DNA from: Gongronella butleri
Lineage: Eukaryota; Mucoromycota; Mucoromycetes; Mucorales; Cunninghamellaceae
Length of the DNA stretch: 64,000 bases
Assembly: GCA_025201375.1 (NCBI GenBank)
Contig: JAIWZP010000089.1
Span: 1 to 64,000 of the forward strand
Reading direction: 5' to 3'
The notes below the pieces were generated by a model that did no database searches, was not told where the DNA came from, and saw only the letters and a program-made list of their open reading frames with translations. The translations under genes and the position numbers were made by a program. How positions within the stretch are numbered: the stretch's first letter is position 1; the number at the start of each line of letters is the position of its first letter. Below are positions 2,870-63,515 of the stretch, in pieces.

Positions 2870-4382
2870 CTAGCTTGCGGTTCGTGCCTGGCCGGGAATG
2901 GTGATGGAATCGTAGGCAGGCAGCGTGGAGCTGAAGCTGTAGAGGCGATTTGACCTGACGGCGGTCGTGTACGAGGGCACACGCGACAGATCCATGCCTT
3001 GCCACGGCAATGGCGCGGGTTCATGGTCGTTTTCGTCGTTTTCGCCATCGTGGTCGTGCGAGGACGCGTCATTGTCATCGAGGGAGGTGGGGGCGAGGCT
3101 GGCGGCCGCATTGGGCGTGGCAACGACCAGCGACGCCGGGTATTGTCCCTCGGCAATCATGCGCGCAAACGTGTCGGGGTCAAACGGCACGCTCTTCCAC
3201 GCATCCTCGTACCTTGGCAGCGCATTTCCGTCGTCATCGCCAGAACTCACTGGGGAGATGATCACGGGGATCGCCGCACGCAATTCTGCCCATGAAAGAA
3301 AAAAAAGTCAACAAATGAGCTCAAAATTCGATTTTTTTCTGTTTTACCTGAAATGTGCCCGTCCTCGTTGACGAGGGAAATCTCGATTTTGATCTTGTGG
3401 CGAACCTTGATGAGGTCATTGGTTGTGTCGAGCGCGATTTTGTTGTCTGTGATGGTGCTCGGAACATGGATTGTCTCTGTTTTGTTAAAAACGTGGTCTG
3501 TCCAGCAGGCTGCGCCTTCGAGATGCTCGTCCTTGATCTGGCGGATGATCTGGCTGAATGTTTTTGAGTGTCCGTCTGCGGTGAGGGTGATGTATTCCTT
3601 GAGTGAGCAGTGAATTGCGCGGAAACGCAGGTTTGGCGCAATGGGCATGAGTTTGAACGTGATTGGGATGTCCGAGTCGGGGACAAAGCATTTTCGCGGC
3701 GTGGAGAACTCGTAGGACATCTTGTCGGACCATGTGTTGACGATCTCGACCTGCTGCAGCAGCGCAAGCGACGTTGGCAGCATCAAACGCGACACCGTCA
3801 GCGTACGCTTGTCCGACCAATTCATCGAGAATGTTGGGCGCTCGGCCACGGCCTTTAGACGATAGTATACCTGGCCGAGATCGTGGGTCACCGTCTCGGG
3901 CAGATCCCCAGGCAATGGCAGCTCGAAATCCCTATTATTTTCATAAAAAAAAAACAAAAAGAAGACGATCAGACCACAATGGCCACTTTAGCCATTTCCC
4001 CATGTCAATTGGATCAATTGGGTCGTTGGGGGATGGAAAAAAAAGAGAGAGAAAAGAGGGTATACCAGCGATAATGTTTCTCCGTGAGGTGGTAGAGCTT
4101 TTTTGCGTGTGGAAGGAAGCTCCACTCGTGTTCGAGAATAGTCTGCTCGTCCTTGTACATTGCCTGTTGCGGCCCACGGCCAAACCCCTCGATCCAGTTC
4201 ACCTTGACCTTGCCAACAAACTTGAGGACGATGGAGCGAATTTTAATAGCCTCGTGGCTGTCGAGGACGACAGACCCTCGCAGTAAGACACCCGCCGACT
4301 CGTCCGTCGACCCGTGCAGCTCGATATGGTCCGTCTCCAAATTGATTTTGAACTCGGTGCCTTGTAATAGAGGCACGTGCAT
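2870..4382 (-). CDS. Arrestin-domain protein (ART/alpha-arrestin-like adaptor)
   Basis: Alpha-arrestins link plasma-membrane transporters to Rsp5/NEDD4-type ubiquitin ligases for endocytosis. The N-terminal arrestin half contains HGSTDESAGVLLRGSVVL and VKVNWIEG. It continues across an intron into the typical WDFELPLPGDLPETV, formed by joining at 4063 and 3931, then FSMNWSDKRTL. The C-terminal arrestin half contains CFVPDSDIPITFKLMPI. A third exon (3283 down to 2870) finishes with ELRAAIPVIISPVSS and a tail rich in Asp and Ser. The tail has PRYED, which resembles a PxY-type ligase-binding motif, and a second PAYDSI near the C-terminus. I chose the ATG at 4382. Arrestin folds often begin a few strands earlier, and a reading frame at about 4490-4530 could supply an upstream exon, but the splice phase does not fit cleanly. 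Confidence 0.82.
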
Positions 4383-18501: not shown

Positions 18502-19842
18502 TCAAATAAGAATGCAGAAAGGGATTTCGTCCAAAAATTCGATGTGCGTCATTTCTGTACTGGCAGAATTGTTGTCAGGTGCACTTTCTACGCATAATGG
18601 CAAAGAGTCGTCGTGTTCCTTCTTGATAAGCGGCCATCCTTTGGTGTTGAGTTCCCTTTTCAGGCGTCTGACAGTGATAACGTTCACTCCGCACTGTTCC
18701 GCCACTCTGGACGGGTCCTCGCCCTTAGCAAGTAGATGGTTGACCTCGTCTAACTTGGCCCCGGATGGAGTTGGCTGTCTGGGTAGATTCATTTTGCGCC
18801 TAATCCTGGCCACGGTTTTTTCACAGCGGCCACAAGCGGCTGCCACTTTGAGTGTTGTCATCCCGCTGCGCAAGAGGCGCCTGATCTTTTGCTTTTCGCA
18901 TTCTGTAACGATTTGGTGTGGTTGCACTTTCCAGCGAGCCGAGTAAGGTCCATTCGAAGGCGGTTTGGTCATGTTCAATTCTCTTTTGATGTTTGTCACG
19001 CTGCTTACTGAAATTCCGCATGCTTTGGCCACAGCCATGCTGGTCTCGCCTTGCTCAAGTCGCCTTTTCATTTCTTGTTTTTTGGCAGGCGTGATTAGCC
19101 TTTGGTAGGGGTACGGGATGTTGCGTGTTTTGCACAAATGTAGTATTGTAGGAGCGGTGATACCACATATTTTGGCTGCCTTGACTGACGACATCCCCTT
19201 GGCAACGCATTTCTGGATCTCTTCGATTTTTTGGTCGTCAGCTGTCCTATAGTTGATGCCCAACTTTCTTTTCACGGTTTTGACAAAACGGAGCGAAACA
19301 TGGCAATCATCCGCAATTTTTTTGAGCGGTTCTCGATCTTGCAGCTGCTTTTGTATCTTTTTGACCGTGTTTTCGTCGTAAGTTGGTTTCTCGTCAGGGG
19401 ACTGGATATCATAAATGAATTTGAGGCTACTGACAGTCTGGTGTGACGTTTTGCTGATGCGAGCTGTTTCCATTATGGAGGCGCCGTCTAAAAGTAGTCG
19501 TATGATTTGTTGCGTTTTGACGAGCGTGAGGCGTCCTATGTATGGCTCGGATTTCGTCGGTTGTAATCGGTATTGGGATACCGTGCGCTGGCCAACATTG
19601 CATGCCGCTGCAATGTGCGAAATCTTCATGCCCTGGGCAATAAGCTTTTTGATTTTTCTGATTGTTGATGCGCTGCATATTTTCGCGCGGTCGTGTGTCT
19701 TTGGAAGGTTGTGTTTGACTCGTTCTCTAGTAACAAATGAGCGACTCACGCCACACTGGCGCGCCGTTTTACCCATTGATAAGCCGCTCAACAAACACGC
19801 CTTAACTTCGTCACGTTTGGCTTGGCTGATGACAAAGCGCAT
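18502..19842 (-). CDS. Protein of eight tandem helix-turn-helix units (new arrangement, not matched to a named family)
   Basis: Single exon, 446 residues, starting at the ATG at 19842. The whole body is a string of eight related units of about 46-62 residues. Each fits the pattern K..I..LL..G.S...AA..CGVS..TV..IKR.LN, as in resolvase/transposase-type helix-turn-helix domains. The glycine ending helix 1 falls at residues 20, 71, 120, 216, 265, 327 and 374; unit 4 has Arg at 170. The Cys-Gly turn (CGVS, CNVG, CHVS, CGIT, CGIS, CGRC, CGVN) falls at residues 30, 81, 180, 226, 275, 337 and 384; unit 3 has Ser-Lys there. A tail of about 35 residues, acidic and then hydrophobic (EFLDEIPFCILI), follows. 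No catalytic domain is visible. The lack of introns and lower GC content set it apart from the conserved genes. Sequence-specific DNA binding is inferred; biological role unknown. Confidence 0.85.
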   Translation of the reverse strand: MRFVISQAKRDEVKACLLSGLSMGKTARQCGVSRSFVTRERVKHNLPKTHDRAKICSASTIRKIKKLIAQGMKISHIAAACNVGQRTVSQYRLQPTKSEPYIGRLTLVKTQQIIRLLLDGASIMETARISKTSHQTVSSLKFIYDIQSPDEKPTYDENTVKKIQKQLQDREPLKKIADDCHVSLRFVKTVKRKLGINYRTADDQKIEEIQKCVAKGMSSVKAAKICGITAPTILHLCKTRNIPYPYQRLITPAKKQEMKRRLEQGETSMAVAKACGISVSSVTNIKRELNMTKPPSNGPYSARWKVQPHQIVTECEKQKIRRLLRSGMTTLKVAAACGRCEKTVARIRRKMNLPRQPTPSGAKLDEVNHLLAKGEDPSRVAEQCGVNVITVRRLKRELNTKGWPLIKKEHDDSLPLCVESAPDNNSASTEMTHIEFLDEIPFCILI

Positions 19843-20499: not shown

Positions 20500-20835
20500 C
20501 CGCGCGTCTGTAATGGACGTTTTGGGTGAAATTGGACTTATATTTGGACGGCATGTTCATAACTGAAACAACTCGCGTCAGCAAATCATCGCAGACCACT
20601 GTCCAATTTCTGAAATTCGTCAACAACATTCATAACCTTTGGCGAGAGAATGACGTACGAACAAGACGTGGTAGAAAAGATCCAGAAGCAGCTCATAGCT
20701 GGTCAGCTGCTCAAGAATATTGCGGCAGATTGCAACGTTAAGCTCTACTTGGTCGAAATGATGAAAAGTAACTATCATAGAATTAGCAATGACAAAATTG
20801 ACAAGGTCACGCAGCCAGTGCCAAAAACCAATATA
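20500..20835 (+). pseudogene. Broken, inverted partial copy of the tandem helix-turn-helix gene
   Basis: On the opposite strand to the intact gene. One frame reads LDLYLDGMFITETTRVSKSS then TTVQFLKFVNNI, matching unit 3 (IRLLLDGASIMETARISKTS). It then shifts frame to TYEQDVVEKIQKQL, LLKNIAADCNVKL and NDKIDKV, matching unit 4 and the start of unit 5 (TYDENTVKKIQKQL, LKKIADDCHVSL, DDQKIEEIQ). At least one frameshift and the lack of the other units make it a non-functional remnant. The level of divergence suggests an old duplication. Confidence 0.75.
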
Positions 20836-26772: not shown

Positions 26773-27310
26773 TCCCCTTTCCCCGTCCTTTTTTTTTTTA
26801 CCTTTTTTCGGACTGTTTTCTTCTACTCATACCTCACATTGTCCTGCCATCTTTCTCATTCATCTGTTCTCAGTTTTTACCACCATTTCCCGCTGAATGA
26901 TCCCCCCTTTCGTAATACAAAACAAATCAGTGCCATTGTATCCTCTGTTACTTGCGATCTAGATACCCCAGGGAGACGAGCAATGGATCAAATGAAAGCG
27001 CGTTTCCTCGACTTCCATTTTTATTGCTTGACACGCGGTGTTGGACTCTATGTTGCGGAGCGTTTGACGCGAATTGATACATTTTCAACAGCTTTCGTGA
27101 CAATTTTTTGGTTAAAATTTGCGAGACACGATGAAATCAAGACGCACTGGGCGAGCACAGACGTGCACAAATCTTCGAGGCGCGGGTAATTGAGGAGTTG
27201 AGGGCGGATCCGAGCGCCCGCAGTTTTTTTTTCGTTTTTTTTCGACCCGCTCGCTTTTTTGGCACTTTTTCTTTTTTTTTTTGTTTCTCTCCTGTAATTT
27301 TTTTGACGCC
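26773..27310. other. Intergenic spacer between RFC1 and KAE1; no gene seen
   Basis: Tandem gene arrangement on the plus strand. Pyrimidine-rich sequence follows the RFC1 stop, and a T-rich leader (27220-27305) precedes the KAE1 start. Confidence 0.5.
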
Positions 27311-28624
<1,314 letters not shown>

Positions 28625-28748: not shown

Positions 28749-31336
28749 TCACTCGTGTTTGTGGAAACAATTGTTGCATTGGCCCTTTTTAAACACATTT
28801 GCGGTAAAATCGTCGCATCCGCAGTCGTGACAGGGTCCGACGGCGGCCATTGTGGCATTGGTTGATGCGCCACGAGATGGTGGGGGTGGTGGGGGTGTGC
28901 GTGTGGACGACGAGTAGCTTCGCGCAGTGTTTGAGCGAGCGATTGGTGGTGCTGGCGCGGTGCGACGCGTGGCTGCGGGCGAATTGACGGCGGATGCGGG
29001 TGGTGTGGTTGTTCCGCGCAGGTAATTGAACGAAGGAGGTGCTGCTGCGGACGTTGGAGGCGCGGCGCGGTCGGTAAAAGGCGAGTCTGCAGAGGCGTAT
29101 GGATCGTCGTCCATGTCATGAGGCTCTTCTTGGATATACGTGGCAATGACCGGGTATCCATTGCCGGTGTTGGTCATTGTGGTGGTGCTGCTACTATTGC
29201 TCGTCAGCACTGGCCTCGTCGCGGGCATGGGCGGCGCCGCAGCGGTTGGTGCCATGGGGGCTGTGTACACAACTGGGAATATCCCGCGTTTCTTCGTGCC
29301 CAGAGCGTCCATCTCGCCAATCCACCATCCCTCGTCCACCGTGTCAATCACCGTAATCACATCACCCACTTGGAACGACAGCTCGTCCGCTGTCTCGCCC
29401 TGGAAATCGTAAACCGCCTTTTGCTGCTTGCGCACAAGCCCAGCGCTGGCTAAAAAATTCAGAAAAAACCCTGTCAGAAATGCATTTTTCGCGTTTTTTC
29501 GCGTTTTTCGTTTTTTTTTCGCGTTTTTTGTGCTTTTGCTCTTTTTTTTCTCCCTTTTCTGTTACATACACCGGCGGCGGATGGGTGGCGTGGAGGGCGC
29601 GACACGGCTGGATGCCGAATTGACAGAGGCCGCATCGTCCATGACGGCGGACGAAAAGCTGCCTGCGCGGACGACTTTTGGATGGTGCTGATGCAGGCTG
29701 TCGACGCTTGGCTGGCGACCAGCGGCCGTGCCATTGCCATTGGCCATGGGGCGATAGCGCGCAGGCGGCGTGTCTTCGTTTGACGATTGTGACGACAAGG
29801 TGGACGACCGTGTGATCGGCCTGGGCCCAGCGCCCACACGATAGCCGTTGGTCGCACCAAGACCGCTTGGCGCACCACCATTGGATCCCAGCTGCTGGCT
29901 GACTTGTTGCAACACCTCGAGTGATTGCTGGTGATACGTCAATTGCGCGTCGACAAATTGTTGCAATGCTTGGCATTGATCCGCCTGGAGTAGGAAAAAA
30001 AAAGGGGGGGCGAGGAGAAAGAGGCGAAGCACGTCGATTAGCAGGATGCATCGAAACGCGTTTGCGCAGCTTTTTTTTTCGTTTTTTTCTTTTTTTTCTT
30101 TTTTTTTTACCTCGTATTCTTGCAGAGCGACCATCTTTTGAATCAAATCATACTCTGTTTCCTCGTACTTCATTTTGGCAGCCTGCATCTCTTGTTCCCA
30201 TTCGGGTTTTTCCTTTTTCGACTTTTGAAGGCGTGCGAGTTTGGCATCATAGTCGAGCCGCCTTGATTCCAATTTCTTTTTCAGGGTGCCATAATCCTTG
30301 TAGGCGTGCACGCCGTGTTGCAGCAGATTGACGTACTGATCACGCATGCTTGCCGCATATTCGTCGTGCAAATGTGAAATTTGAAGCTCGCCGTGGGCCA
30401 CGTTGATCATGGTTGCCCCTGAAGAGAGATAAAAAAGCAAATATTGAGCAACGTCATCAGAATTAAGGCAAGGGGTGGGGGGGAGACAAAGGGAGAAGAG
30501 CGAGAACCAGGTCAGGGATACGCTTTTTTTTTTTTTTTTGCCTGAGACGCAATTTAACCTTAATTCCCTCCCCCCTCGTCCTCTTTTTCCTTACCCAAGA
30601 CAGCGTCATCACTAAAGGTTGCGGCGTATTGAAGCCAGCAATTCGCCAATGCTTCCAGGGGCGGACACTTTGTCTTGCCGTCCTCAGGCGACGGCTTCTT
30701 TTTGGCCAAATGGTGCTGGAAAGCGTCGGCCGCCTCAAACACCTTGTCAAAGCCCGCTTTTTTGGCATCCGTGTCGTGCTCCATCTGCTGGAAATCCTCG
30801 GTTTGGTTTGTCGCCTTGGCTTGCCCCAGGCGCTCGCCCGTCCACTATGAAATAAACCGTGCAATTAGCATATCGAACAATTCGCTTCCAAATGCGACCC
30901 AAATATGGCAATGGGTTGTGTCTGGAACAGAACTAGGCCCATCTCCGAGTTAAAAAAAGGGTTCGCGCACAACGGCTGCAGCCTGATGGGGGGCCTGGGT
31001 GTATATTTTTAGCAGTAAAATCCGTTCTCTCTTGCTGTTTGTTGCCAAAAAGTCGTGATGAATCTCATCACTATGACCATGACTTTTTGCAACGCTGCAA
31101 TAAGGCCAGCAAAGCATAATGCAAAAAAAAAAAGGTACGAGGCGCGCCACAAGGGCCGTTTCCGGGTGCCAATTGCCCCAGGTTGCCTTGACCACTTTTT
31201 TTTTTTGCGCTGATCAGCTCGGTGACACCAAAAGCAAAGCAGATCAGCGCGCCAACGCATTGCCGCTTCAAGGGAGAGGAGGAGAAGGGGGAGGATGCTT
31301 GCTTACCTGTTTCAATTTCCCAAAATTTTTAATCAT
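28749..31336 (-). CDS. BAR and SH3 domain protein with C-terminal zinc-ribbon-like motif (endophilin/amphiphysin-like)
   Basis: Probably bends membranes at endocytic sites and recruits actin or endocytic partners. Five exons (31336-31307, 30844-30595, 30418-30111, 29984-29570, 29449-28749) join in phase to give 567 residues. The first 10 codons sit alone, followed by a 462-base intron. The BAR region (about residues 5-240) includes WTGERLGQAKATKQTEDF, LESRRLDYDAKLARLQKSKKE and KYEETEYDLIQKM. A Ser/Pro-rich linker follows. The SH3 domain contains KAVYDFQGETADELSFQVGD and EGWWIGEMDALGTKKRGIFP. A Pro-rich region precedes a tail with CHDCGCDDF and CNNCFH, a CxxC...CxxC pattern suited to one zinc ion. 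The exon 4/5 join uses the GTATGT donor; a nearby GTGTAT would break the frame. Confidence 0.88.
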
Positions 31337-56946: not shown

Positions 56947-58340
56947 TCAATGAGCGTCCATGTCATGGTCGCCGTCCTTGTCCGTGTCGTCCTTGCGCAC
57001 CTGGCGCTCGATGCCGCGCAAAAAGGCTTCTGGGCCGAGGGCAGCGGAGGGATCGAGGCCGAATTGCTGTGTGAGTGGGCCGAGCTGGCCGCTTTGGAGT
57101 GCGCCGGTGAAGCCATGGAGCGCCTGTTGGAATTGAGGCGATAAAAGGACCTGGCGCAGCTGGTCGGGCGTATGTTCGCAATTGTCGGGCAAGTGAGGAT
57201 ACATTGCTTCGCAGACGTCCTTGTCGGTGAGCAGGGTGGCAAGCACGTCCTTGTTCAAAACGTCCTTTAGGTGGACGGGGCTGGCCTGCTGCTGTTGTTG
57301 CTGGAATCCGGCGAGGATGTTGCGCAATTGCTCGTACTGGTCACCCGACTCGGCGGCGGGGGCTGATGCAGATGCTGGTTCTGCGGCTGGTGCCGGTGCC
57401 TCCTGCTCCTGCTCCTGCTGTTGTTCCTGCTCTTGCTCTTGCATGGGCGTGGGCTGCTCAGGCGCGGCCGTCGCCGTCGTGTCCGTTTCGGCCGTGTCGG
57501 GGACAGACGGCGCCACCGTCGCATTGGTGGTATTGTCGTCATTGATCGCGTCGTCGTCATGGTCGTCACTATTTTTCAAGAAAATTGAGCCTCTCCCATT
57601 CTTTTCTTTTTTTTTTTATTCCTTACTGCTGCTGCCTGGCTTGCTGAAAGAGCTCCATGAGACTCTGTTCGGTAAGCGAGCCGTCCGAGGCGGAGCCCAT
57701 AAGACGCTGCATCAGTTCCATTTCGATGTTTTGCGAATCAATGTCCATGGCGGTGTCATCGAGCGATGGCGTGTTTATGGCCCGATTGACGCTATTGATG
57801 AATGTGTCGTCACCGCGGTCGTTTTTGTGTTGCATCCAATAAAACAGTCGCTGGCTCGATGTCTTGAACTTTAGCATGATCACACGGCCCGTCGTGCATT
57901 CAGGCACCCGCACCATCTCGGCCTCGTCCGGGAAGATGATCAAATCCTACGCCAATCGCGTCAATTTTTTTTTAGAAAAAGAGGGAGGAAACGCTTACGT
58001 CTTCGGGCTGGCTGCCACTCTTGCGTTCCTTCCAGTAAAAATGCATCAATTGGTCGTCGCCCTAGGCATTCACAAAGAAAAAAACAGATGAATTTCGGCA
58101 GTGCACACGCGCGCGCGCAAACAAAAAAAGTGTACCTGATCCATGTAAATCAAGCTATAAACAACAACAAAGAACGAAGAAGAAGAAAAAATAAAGACAC
58201 GTCAGTGGGTGAGAGTGGAAAACAAAGCAATTGTACCCTTTTCGTAGGTCAGGCTTGAGCAAGTTGCCTTGGCGTATGCATTTTCCGGCGTGGAATTGCA
58301 CTAGGTGGCGCTCTACGGGCTGATACAGGTTGAGGACCAT
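56947..58340 (-). CDS. RPN13: Proteasome regulatory subunit RPN13 (ADRM1)
   Basis: Ubiquitin receptor of the 19S proteasome that also anchors the deubiquitinase UCH37 where present. Four to five exons from the ATG at 58340. The N-terminal Pru domain has LVQFHAGKCIRQGNLLKPDLRKG, LIYMDQGDDQLMHFYWKER, FPDEAEMVRVPECTTGRV and KFKTSSQRLFYWMQHKND. An acidic, Gln/Glu-rich and Ala/Pro-rich linker follows (EQEQEQQQEQEQE). The C-terminal DEUBAD-like helical domain includes LKDVLNKDVLATLLTDKDV, MYPHLPDNCEHTPDQLRQVL and SPQFQQALHGFTGALQSGQL. Having the DEUBAD domain implies a UCH37 partner, unlike in S. cerevisiae. About 375 residues. It is divergent from SEN54 with 154 bases between the start codons. Confidence 0.95.
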
Positions 58341-60075: not shown

Positions 60076-63000
60076 ATGGACCAGGTAGCGCACACCTCTT
60101 TTTTTTTTCATTGTTATGCTCATTCTCGCGTTTCTTCTTCATTTTCCTAGTTACTCGAAAGGCCCTTTGACGCGCAGCTCTTTGATCGCATCGTGGACGC
60201 TTTTTACACGGGCTCGGACGACACGGTAAACCGACTACCACGTGTTCTGCGCCTCCAGCGTCTAATTTTTTTTATTTTTTTTTATTTTCAGCGTACCAAG
60301 GCCCAGCAAGTGCTCACAGCGTTTGGCAATCAGCCAGATGCATGGCAATCGGTCGCCACTATCCTTGACGCGTCCACAAGCGCCAATGCCAAGGTAGACA
60401 ATCAAAAAGAACAATGAAAAAAAAAAAACTCGGACGTGACCCCTTTTTTTTAATTGGGATAGTACCTAGGCCTGCGTATTCTCGAACAATTTGTCCTTGT
60501 GCGATGGTACACGGTGCCAGTGTCGACGCGTCTAGGCAAGAAAAGAATGAGGGGTTTATAGAAATGGCCATTGACCTCCTTTTCCAAGTAGAAATTCGGA
60601 ATTACCTTGTCCAGCAGGTGATTCGGCATGCATCGGCGGGGACGGCTGCGCCGCTCGTCTTGGGCAAACTGAATGTGCTTCTCGTGCAGATTCTCAAAAA
60701 AGACTGGCTACACCATTGGCCCGAATTTATCCCCGAGCTCGTGGCCGCCAGCCCGACATCGCTTGCGCTGTGCGAGAATAACCTGCGTCTGATTGCCATG
60801 TTTTGCCAAGATGTGTTTGAAAAGGAGGATGTCATTGTCGCTAAGCAGCGCAAGATGCGCGCACGCATGATGGACCAGGCGCCGATGCTGCTCGATCTGT
60901 GTACTCAGGTGCTGACATCACCAACTGTTCCGCCCTCTCTTTCACGCACCGCGCTTGCCACCGTGGCTAAACTCGTCCCATTCATCGACACGAGCGCCGT
61001 CCCAACCATCCTCAAGCACATCGCCTTGTGGGGAACCAAATCGCACGCACATCGCCATCTCGTTGTCGAATGTCACGCCGAAATCATTGCACGCGACGAA
61101 CTGCCGCCCGCAATCATACCAGACATGGCCAATTCGGTGTTGTCGCTGCTTTCGCAGGCCATTGGACCCTCACTTGACGACATGGACGCCGAGGATCAGG
61201 CGTGTGTGCAGCAGGGTGCTCTGTTTTTGACAAGTGTCATGACCAAACCTTTGGAAATGCCCGTCGACCTCAAAACACAGTGCCATCGCGCAATGCTCGC
61301 GGTCTCTGGCCTGGAAAGCGAACCATTGTGGGTTGTTTGCCTGGAATACTGGGAAAAAATGGTGACAAGTGATGCCATCAGTGGTGATTTCGCCAATGAT
61401 TTGCTGCGCACGATCTTGGCACATTTGGATCAAGTGGATCAAGTGGACCCCATGGCCAGCAAGGTCCTCCGATGGGCGGTGCAGGCGAATCCAGCGTGGA
61501 CTTTGGGCTTTCTGGAGCATGAATTGCAAGCGGGATTGCAGGCGCAGCTATGGGACGACCAGGTCCCGCGTGTGTGCTGGGCAATTGCAAGCCTGGATGA
61601 TGACGATGTTCGAGCGCCGCCTCAGCCATGGATGGGACCCCTCGTTGACGCATGTATGAGGGCATTTCAGGCGTCATTGAGCGAAGCGACCGCCCAACAC
61701 ATCTTGCAATGGGCCTCCATCATCCTTGGACATGCTCCGCGCCACATTGACACACATCTCGCCTTTGTCGCGGCTCTCTGGCCATTTTTACGCGATGCCC
61801 TTCACAGCAATGACCCAGAGATCAAAAAAGTCGCATGCAATTCCCTTGCCCATCTCGCCAAGGCTCCCGCCATGGCCACACTCGATCTACCAGGCAATGG
61901 CGGCTCGCTCTTGGCACGCGTGGGCGCCCAATTGCCCACCATCCTATCTGACTGGCATCAGACGCGCGAGGTAAATTCAAAATGAGGTGCATTTTCGCCC
62001 TTTGGCTTACTTTTTTTTTTTCTCTTCTCTGCTAGATGGAGATTCTTTTTGCATCGCTTGGTTGCATGATTCGCCACCTGGCTCCCGGGCAGCAACTGGC
62101 GGCCCTACAGCAGGTCATGGCCGTGCCAAATGAAAAAATGGGTCTCGTCGCACGCGCATCCAGCATGAACGACTTGGTGATGCTGCGCACCGTGATGCAC
62201 ATCAACGTCTCGCTAGGCACACACATCGGAGCCGTCTTTCAGCACCAATTCGACGCGATGCTCCCTTTGCTCTTGGTGATTTACAGCACAATTAGCTCCT
62301 CGTCGGCTGCATCGGCCTCGCTGCCGCCACCACAGGCGAGGATGCACGTCCTCATCAAGCAGGATTGCTGCAAGATCCTCAGCGCATACGCGACCCATTA
62401 CACGGGCGTGTCCCTTGCAAATGTCGACATTTGGCCACAGCTGCTCTGGACCATCATGCTCGATTTTCACGACCAGGGCTTTGCATCCGCCGCACCGGTC
62501 CTCACCATGATGGCTGAGCTGATTAAAAAGCTCAAGGTATGATAAGGAAAAAAAAAAAAAAAGGGGAGAGAAGAAAAAAAAATGGCGGAATAATCATCCT
62601 TTTATTGTCAGCTACCGTGGGCATACCCGCAAAATGCCATGGTCACCATGCTCATTGAGCCGACACTCATGGCCATCAAGCAAAACATGAGCGATTACCC
62701 TGACCACCGATCAGGCTTTTTTACCCTATTGCAAGCCATTGGTGAACATTATTTTCAAGGTAAAAAAAAAAAAAAAAAGCAAGGAATAGAGAGGACGGAA
62801 ATGGAGTGTGGCTCGTCATTAAATTATTTTGGACGCGTAGAGATGATGCAGTGGCCCGTGCAAGACGTGGCGCTGCTGCTGGACAGCATGCTTTGGGGTG
62901 CGCGGCACACACTGCTGGACATAGCGCTGCCGTCGCTCAAGACGTGCCTAACGCTCCTCCAGCAAGTGCGCGAGCTGGATGATGAGGACATGGCAGGCGA

Positions 63001-63515
63001 TTTCTACCAAGCACATTACATGCGTTTGCTCGACGGTGTGCTGCAGGTGCTCAAGGACCCCGATTGTCAAAATAGTCTGCACGCCCAGAGCAGGCTTCTC
63101 GCCACCCTCCTCCAGGTCGTCGAACAGGGGGAAGTCTATGTCCCCGTGTTCGACCCATCCCAGGTCGCCAACCCACTCATGTCAAACACGGTCTATATCA
63201 CCCAGTACGTCCACGACTTTTTCATGCGCTCTTTTCCCTTTCTCGCCTCGTAAGCACAATCATCAAAAGAAAAAAAAAGAAGAAAAAATGAGGCCAGGGC
63301 CGGACGCCATTGCTCATGAAACATCCCTTGTCTGAACTAGTCATCAGGTCGAGGTGATGGTGCGTGGGATGTTTGCTTACAGCGATCAAATGTCGCAATT
63401 CGAGCAAGATTTACAAGACTTTTTGGTGGACATTCGGCAGGCCGAGGATGATGAGGTCACGCAAGAAATCAAGCAAGACGAGCTGCTCGCCGAGCAGGAG
63501 CTTTTTACCCTGTGA
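60076..63515 (+). CDS. CRM1: Exportin-1 (CRM1/XPO1), one exon with an unresolved frame break
   Basis: Karyopherin that carries leucine-rich NES cargo out of the nucleus with RanGTP. Exon 1 (60076-60084) encodes only MDQ. Exon 2 starts at 60151 (LLERPFDAQLFDRIVDAFYT), exon 3 is 60292-60393 (RTKAQQVLTAFGNQPDAWQS), exon 4 starts at 60463 (YLGLRILEQFVLVRW). Then come GKLNVLLVQILKKDWLHHWPE and FIPELVAASPTSLALCENN. The NES-groove helix IKKVACNSLAHLAK carries the Cys attacked by leptomycin B in sensitive species. The C-terminal HEAT repeats include MSDYPDHRSGFFTLLQAIGE and LLDSMLWGARHT, and the end FSYSDQ-like FAYSDQMSQFEQDLQDFLVDI. After exon 4 codon RW the frame changes by one near 60500-60540. 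A 29-base GT-AG stretch (60507-60535) would restore it, otherwise a one-base indel is needed. About 1000 residues. Confidence 0.93.

Follow-up and report, generated by a model that had tools for sequence, protein, structure and literature searches.

We analysed a window of 64,000 nucleotides from the genome of the soil fungus Gongronella butleri (Mucorales, Cunninghamellaceae), and the subject of this study is a gene on its minus strand that encodes a string of eight helix-turn-helix (HTH) units followed by a short C-terminal tail. We refer to it as the poly-HTH gene, and the same genome contains a family of its paralogues. The gene, its units and its tail are listed below.

18502 to 19842, minus strand: poly-HTH protein gene, one open frame of 446 amino acids with an ATG start and no internal stop
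19702 to 19824, minus strand: HTH unit 1, residues 7-47, helix 3 opened by Arg34-Ser35
19549 to 19671, minus strand: HTH unit 2, residues 58-98, helix 3 opened by Gln85-Arg86
19402 to 19524, minus strand: HTH unit 3, residues 107-147, helix 3 opened by His134-Gln135
19252 to 19374, minus strand: HTH unit 4, residues 157-197, helix 3 opened by Leu184-Arg185
19114 to 19236, minus strand: HTH unit 5, residues 203-243, helix 3 opened by Ala230-Pro231
18967 to 19089, minus strand: HTH unit 6, residues 252-292, helix 3 opened by Val279-Ser280
18781 to 18903, minus strand: HTH unit 7, residues 314-354, helix 3 opened by Glu341-Lys342
18640 to 18762, minus strand: HTH unit 8, residues 361-401, helix 3 opened by Val388-Ile389
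18505 to 18543, minus strand: C-terminal family tag, residues 434-446, predicted to be disordered

HTH units of the window protein

The units are about 41 residues long, start at residues 7, 58, 107, 157, 203, 252, 314 and 361, and together span residues 7-401. An earlier reading of the DNA, made without database searches (the sequence-only reading), had claimed eight related tandem HTH units spaced 46-62 residues apart, and both statements held: the spacings are 51, 49, 50, 46, 49, 62 and 47, and a unit profile built without the units of the window protein recovered all eight at 23.7-46.2 bits. In comparison, the maximum among 1000 shuffled window proteins was 9.3 bits, and only two of the 1000 reached at least 8 bits. 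The same reading had described a conserved helix-end Gly and a Cys-Gly turn. In the alignment the Gly was found in seven of the eight units and the exact Cys-Gly in five, and the rest lack them.

In the Pfam scan, the window protein matched HTH_23 (PF13384; 5.5e-31, 106 bits against a curated cut-off of 24.6), HTH_28 (3.2e-21) and HTH_7 (PF02796; 1.1e-20, 73.9 bits against a cut-off of 23.8). These matches, together with the fold matches given below, agree with the proposal that the units are of the resolvase/transposase type. Furthermore, the HTH part of the protein is strongly basic. Among the best 25 of the 35 Pfam matches at E ≤ 1, on which all statements of absence for this protein are based, there was no DDE family (DDE_3), no serine catalytic domain before the HTH, no C2H2 finger, no KRAB domain, and no domain for mobility, toxin activity or transposase catalysis. 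The HTH units fill the chain, and the structural model leaves no space for a serine catalytic domain. Thus, the lack of a catalytic domain noted earlier was confirmed, and a standard transposase, a standard recombinase or a single repressor was rejected on this ground. In addition, P0009, a protein of 178 amino acids listed for the window contig, matches no more than the C-terminal 40% of the window protein, and the existing gene model may be truncated.

AlphaFold2 was run on the window protein with an input of nine sequences, and the model had a mean predicted local distance difference test score (pLDDT) of 71.7 and a predicted template modelling score (pTM) of 0.31. Its 24 helices fall into eight triplets, so that each unit is predicted to adopt a three-helix HTH fold. 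The pLDDT was mostly 75-90 inside units 1-7 and about 67-75 in unit 8. In every one of the eight modelled units, helix 3 begins at unit position 26 (residues 34, 85, 134, 184, 230, 279, 341 and 388). The best fold matches of unit 2 were resolvase and Tc3 domains, and the solved folds close to the unit include recombinase and transposase domains bound to DNA. In the PDB, both the sequence comparison and Foldseek ranked 8vd6 first, a "CAP repeat" with five short HTH-like repeats. We take 8vd6 to be a designed protein because a paper on protein design names it (PMC12339374, available text), and it was set aside as a natural precedent. Both profile and structure checks therefore identify the units as HTH, in an architecture that is not that of a standard transposase or repressor.

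A paralogue family with a conserved tail

A tblastn search of the G. butleri genome returned 67 matches. We scanned 26 genome stretches and found 43 frames with a unit match, 24 of which carry at least four units. With the first profile, the tail closes 22 of these 24 frames, and the remaining two (on C78 and C93) are broken copies. With a refined profile, for which frames were picked for presence of the tail, there were 24 tail-bearing frames with 4-11 units and three shorter ones with 1-3. Among the 24 frames, C52:225437-226450 resembles the 3' portion of a split gene, and the tail of C34:310751-312271 is degraded. This membership in a family of 24 open frames with 4-11 units had been missed by the sequence-only reading, because the whole genome is needed to see it. 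About nine copies are broken or partial (C78:711k, C93:56k, C93:74k, C100:538k, C45:693k, C44:108-109k, C46:130.8k, C34:710-712k and 20535-20826 of the window).

The window protein is 23-49% identical to 22 aligned paralogues. All six divergent paralogues scanned passed the HTH cut-offs of Pfam, and one of them also matched CENP-B_N (2.4e-5). Some members lie in head-to-tail clusters, for instance five on C67 (92.9-99.8 kb) and others on C52 and C44. The units of the family evolve as modules. For example, a gene on C1 (L037; C1:580544-582505, minus strand) has 11 units, of which units 6 and 7 are identical in 141 of 141 bases, and each of units 7 to 9 shares 80-89% identity with the unit that follows it. 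These identical or similar neighbouring units point to recent unit duplication. Furthermore, at unit positions 26, 27, 30 and 31, there were 156 different tetrads among 165 scorable family units.

The tail, which the sequence-only reading had noticed in one protein, is a real conserved element. Its consensus over the 27 tail-bearing frames, which carry variants thereof, is I-x-F-L-D-E-I-P-F-C/V-I/V-L-I-stop. Counted from the C-terminus, all 27 frames have Pro -6, 26 have Phe -5, and the count is 25 for each of Ile -7, Leu -2 and Ile -1. Position -4 is Cys in 14 and Val in nine, and the remainder of the tail is nearly constant. Prenylation through the C-terminal CILI (as a CaaX box) was ruled out, since Cys -4 occurs in only 14 of the 27 tails. 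A search of the genome with the tail found 15 places, 14 of which are family genes or their remnants. The other, on C85 (E 0.056), was doubtful and was not counted, because neither a clean tail motif nor a unit was found there.

The codons for Pro, Leu and Ile -7 vary, and the tail is thus conserved at the protein level. Meanwhile, some third positions are nearly fixed, namely Phe -11 (TTT in 24 of 24), Phe -5 (TTT in 25 of 26) and Ile -1 (ATT in 25 of 25), against 57% TTT and 32% ATT outside the tail in the same genes. In a scan of well-conserved columns, these three tail codons were among the most skewed, and certain columns in the body were skewed too. Shared descent explains part of this skew, and a constraint at the DNA or RNA level overlapping the tail is possible.

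Near the tail there is also a short motif in the window protein:

18616 to 18627, minus strand: SUMO-like psi-K-x-E motif, residues 406-409

Of 24 frames, seven have this motif at -41 from the C-terminus, and 10 have it somewhere from -41 to -45. It was seen near the C-terminus in genes on C54, C44, C52, C94 and C31 and in the window gene, and it is absent from the C67 cluster. The psi-K-x-E pattern is a SUMO consensus, and a SUMO site here is a lead only.

Evolutionary rates along the gene

Two paralogue groups were aligned separately, one with seven intact window-like genes and the other with the five C67 genes. Four of the 11 window-like genes were left out as broken or doubtful (C44:102887-104053, C52:225437-226450, C93:56224-57375 and C78:711009-712295). 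The ratio of nonsynonymous to synonymous substitution rates (omega) was estimated using a purpose-written codon likelihood with one synonymous rate (dS) scale common to all site classes, and columns with fewer than half of the genes present were omitted. In the window-like and C67 groups, respectively, omega was 2.98 and 1.59 at unit positions 26-27, 1.01 and 0.61 in linkers, 0.69 and 0.39 at other surface positions, 0.42 and 0.25 in the core, and 0.00 and 0.26 in the tail, so that in the window-like group no class changes more slowly than the tail. Keeping all 11 window-like genes left the ranking of the classes unchanged.

Positions 26-27 exceeded the linkers significantly (likelihood ratio statistic 47.2, P = 6.5e-12 in the window-like group; 21.0, P = 4.5e-6 in C67). 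When single positions were ranked, 27 was first and 26 second of 37 in both groups, and the two stayed on top in all 12 leave-one-gene-out runs. In the window-like group, the next positions were 15, 30, 16 and 31. In addition, site rates under an amino-acid model were also highest at 26 and 27. It is thus firm that in both groups nothing else in the gene changes as fast as positions 26-27, and less certain that omega exceeds one there, because omega above one was marginal or non-significant when each class had its own dS. Positions 26 and 27 are the two residues that open helix 3, the end at which a recognition helix meets DNA. The fast change thus falls on predicted DNA-contact residues, as the idea of unit-by-unit reading in the sequence-only reading predicts. 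We place the base-contacting residues of the Hin recombinase, Ser174 and Arg178, at unit positions 27 and 31.

Relatives outside the genome and origin of the units

A search of 5.8 billion proteins (6737 candidates) returned seven proteins, all from G. butleri. A profile search with 23 sequences, in which the 7995 candidates sharing the most words were scored, found nine proteins: seven of G. butleri, P0009 of the window itself, and P0010, a JGI metagenome protein (9.3e-4) without the tail. The recall of this search is limited, since it missed P0005, which the earlier protein search had found. A protein search with the tail region was empty, but G. butleri proteins with FLDEIPF were not returned either. 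There were 46 pattern matches in prokaryote genomes and 14 in viral contigs, none of them confirmed as a relative, and a phage search gave one match at E 0.5. We found no tagged relative outside G. butleri in these limited searches, in which other Mucorales were not taken one by one, and restriction of the tagged family to this species is unproven.

The unit profile matches the first HTH of Tc1/mariner frames in the same genome. The best such match had E 1.2e-7 among the frames of 13 stretches, and that frame itself has no DDE_3. Among six scanned frames with an HTH_23-like domain, four carry DDE_3 and HTH_Tnp_Tc3_2, one HTH_Tnp_Tc3_2 only and one DDE_3 only, so that DDE_3 is present in five of the six. 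From the profile matches, it is plausible that the units were derived from a Tc1/mariner domain.

Comparison with known systems

The same string layout was found in ORF18 of Bacillus phage PM1 (L064, 9461-10555), an uncharacterised protein of 364 amino acids with six HTH_23-like units by profile and a seventh by eye. It is a tandem HTH string as well, but it is a phage protein without the tail. Furthermore, 23 viral models matched in a structure search at E ≤ 0.001, the best two covering 411 and 427 columns with a low TM-score. The claim that a multi-unit string is unknown in this fold was thus too strong. PHROG profiles of phage DNA-binding proteins also match the window protein, for instance PHROG 323, "transcriptional regulator, D5-like" (residues 155-354, 1.3e-9).

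Like Tc1/mariner transposases (Tc3, Mos1), whose HTH_23 domain in elements of the same genome resembles the unit and whose Tc3 domain superposes on it, the family uses this type of HTH. However, those proteins have two HTH types and then DDE_3, whereas here there are 4-11 like units and DDE is unmatched. Similarly, serine recombinases (Sin, gamma-delta, Tn3 and Hin) share the HTH_7 match and are among the best structural matches, and the unit profile can be aligned with Sin 172-197 (E 0.034), but in these proteins a serine catalytic domain precedes a single HTH. Unlike CENP-B and Abp1-like proteins, the window protein shows no DDE-derived domain. Transcription activator-like effectors (TALEs) also read DNA through strings of modular repeats, each of which carries two variable residues. 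Their repeats have 34 residues and two helices and pack as one superhelix, whereas the units here are predicted to have three helices in about 41 residues and, spaced 46-62 apart, to form separate beads on linkers.

KRAB zinc-finger genes have an array of tandem units, an effector part, clusters of duplicates, and selection at the contact residues in duplicates; their orthologues mostly keep these residues, PRDM9 excepted (PMC3126818, available part). The G. butleri family shares with KRAB zinc-finger and PRDM9 proteins the tandem units, the duplicate clusters, the varying unit number, a putative effector part and the signs of selection at contact residues, here predicted ones and judged from paralogues alone. 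Its duplicates diversify at predicted contact residues 26 and 27, with omega above one under class-specific dS in one group only. On the other hand, the family is fungal, its units are trihelical HTHs and not C2H2 fingers, and a peptide of about 13 residues at the C-terminus takes the place of a KRAB, SCAN or PRDM domain as the constant part. Thus, it is not a member of the KRAB zinc-finger family.

Other features of the window

18502-19842 is accompanied by one decayed relative, just upstream of it and in the opposite orientation:

20535 to 20826, plus strand: decayed paralogue remnant (region of units 3-5), two frames, E 1.3e-4 and 0.24

The window has 50 ORFs of at least 150 amino acids. 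We scanned 20 of them for Pfam domains, and seven had matches, none to a transposon domain. Ordinary neighbours include an arrestin C domain (3262-3957), TsaD (27281-27982), SH3 and BAR domains (28749-30440), an RPN13 C domain (56947-57579) and exportin-1/CRM1 (60414-63253).

Interpretation

The window protein is a member of an expanded poly-HTH family, and we propose that this family is probably a diversifying DNA-reading repertoire with a shared docking tail. The strongest support comes from the evolutionary rates. Members are strings of 4-11 resolvase/Tc1-type HTH units on flexible linkers, ending in a constant C-terminal peptide. The third helix of each unit would enter the DNA major groove, and the string would read a long composite site. 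Paralogues, which differ in the residues opening helix 3, would have different targets, and the tail may dock all members on one partner, such as a repressor, a chromatin factor or a recombination factor. Diversifying units with a constant tail would be analogous to KRAB zinc-finger or PRDM9 proteins. DNA binding, long-site reading and partner docking are what we infer from these data, and the likeliest use would be recognition of changing genomic targets, for example transposons.

Several results weigh against this proposal. The site classes were set after viewing column variability across all 178 units. With class-specific dS, omega at positions 26-27 was 2.25 in one group (P = 0.017, marginal) and 1.47 in the other (P = 0.39, non-significant). 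Fast change in the window-like group is not confined to helix 3, since positions 15-16 show it as well. Helix-3 positions 30 and 31 had 1.82 and 1.26 in that group, and in C67 they are not fast (0.54 and 0.23); we weighed the proposal slightly lower because of this difference. In the amino-acid site rates, the excess of a wider class (26/27/30/31/34) over linkers had P = 0.02 with all 11 window-like genes and P = 0.13 in C67. In addition, no arrangement of the units is predicted, because the pTM is so low, and Foldseek with the window model found nothing in PDB at E ≤ 0.001 (best 0.036). Finally, nematode F-box A2 proteins carry a captured Tc1/mariner HTH, and gel shifts on the inverted repeats tried were negative (PMC12062965, available text).

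The last observation leads to another explanation, in which the units, though HTH in fold, have protein or RNA as their ligand, and conflict with a protein partner, for instance in non-self recognition, drives the diversification of the helix-3 face. HTH folds do get reused, and an expanded, fast-evolving family resembles many recognition families. However, the residues that open the recognition helix are the fastest in two groups, the HTH part is strongly basic, and DNA-bound recombinase and transposase domains are among the close solved folds. We consider this explanation unlikely.

It is also rather improbable that the family is not a host repertoire but a selfish one or one engaged in conflict (as a drive, a killer or a satellite binder), with DNA-reading strings that promote their own spread. 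Such families often are, like this one, clustered, with many broken copies and in one species so far, but the best Pfam matches of the window protein include no domain for mobility, toxin activity or transposase catalysis, and the strongly constrained tail points to one host partner in common.

D5 coats DNA. The match to PHROG 323 and the string layout shared with PM1 ORF18 would fit a DNA-coating or architectural protein of the D5 type with little sequence preference. But a coat without preference leaves the faster-than-linker change at the expected base-facing residues unexplained and gives no reason for so many different tetrads, so that we hold this explanation to be very improbable. Transposase DNA-binding-domain copies drifting without function, to which the Tc1/mariner elements matching the unit profile and the broken copies might point, can practically be dismissed, since 24 long frames are open and the omega of core (0.25-0.42) and tail (0.00-0.26) indicates purifying selection.

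To come back to the DNA-reading repertoire, strings of HTH units are already known from phage PM1, and it is the expanded, diversifying and tagged family that appears new. We found no description of a tailed poly-HTH family in the titles and abstract openings of the open PMC literature. A more specific version of the proposal is possible, and we offer it tentatively: the family may be a fungal, KRAB-like repertoire private to its lineage, in which units read DNA mainly through positions 26 and 27 (30 and 31 in some), duplication lengthens the site, selection retargets the string to transposons or recombination sites, and the invariant tail recruits machinery for silencing or recombination. In that case the natural variation of the units could reveal a recognition code for HTHs, perhaps with use in programmable DNA binding. 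The tag of 13 residues common to the open members points to a testable partner. To our knowledge, the zinc fingers of animals are the main known case of modular DNA readers that form repertoires under diversifying selection. If the G. butleri family is an independent repertoire of this kind, the same arms-race design can arise from another fold, and in an early-branching fungus.
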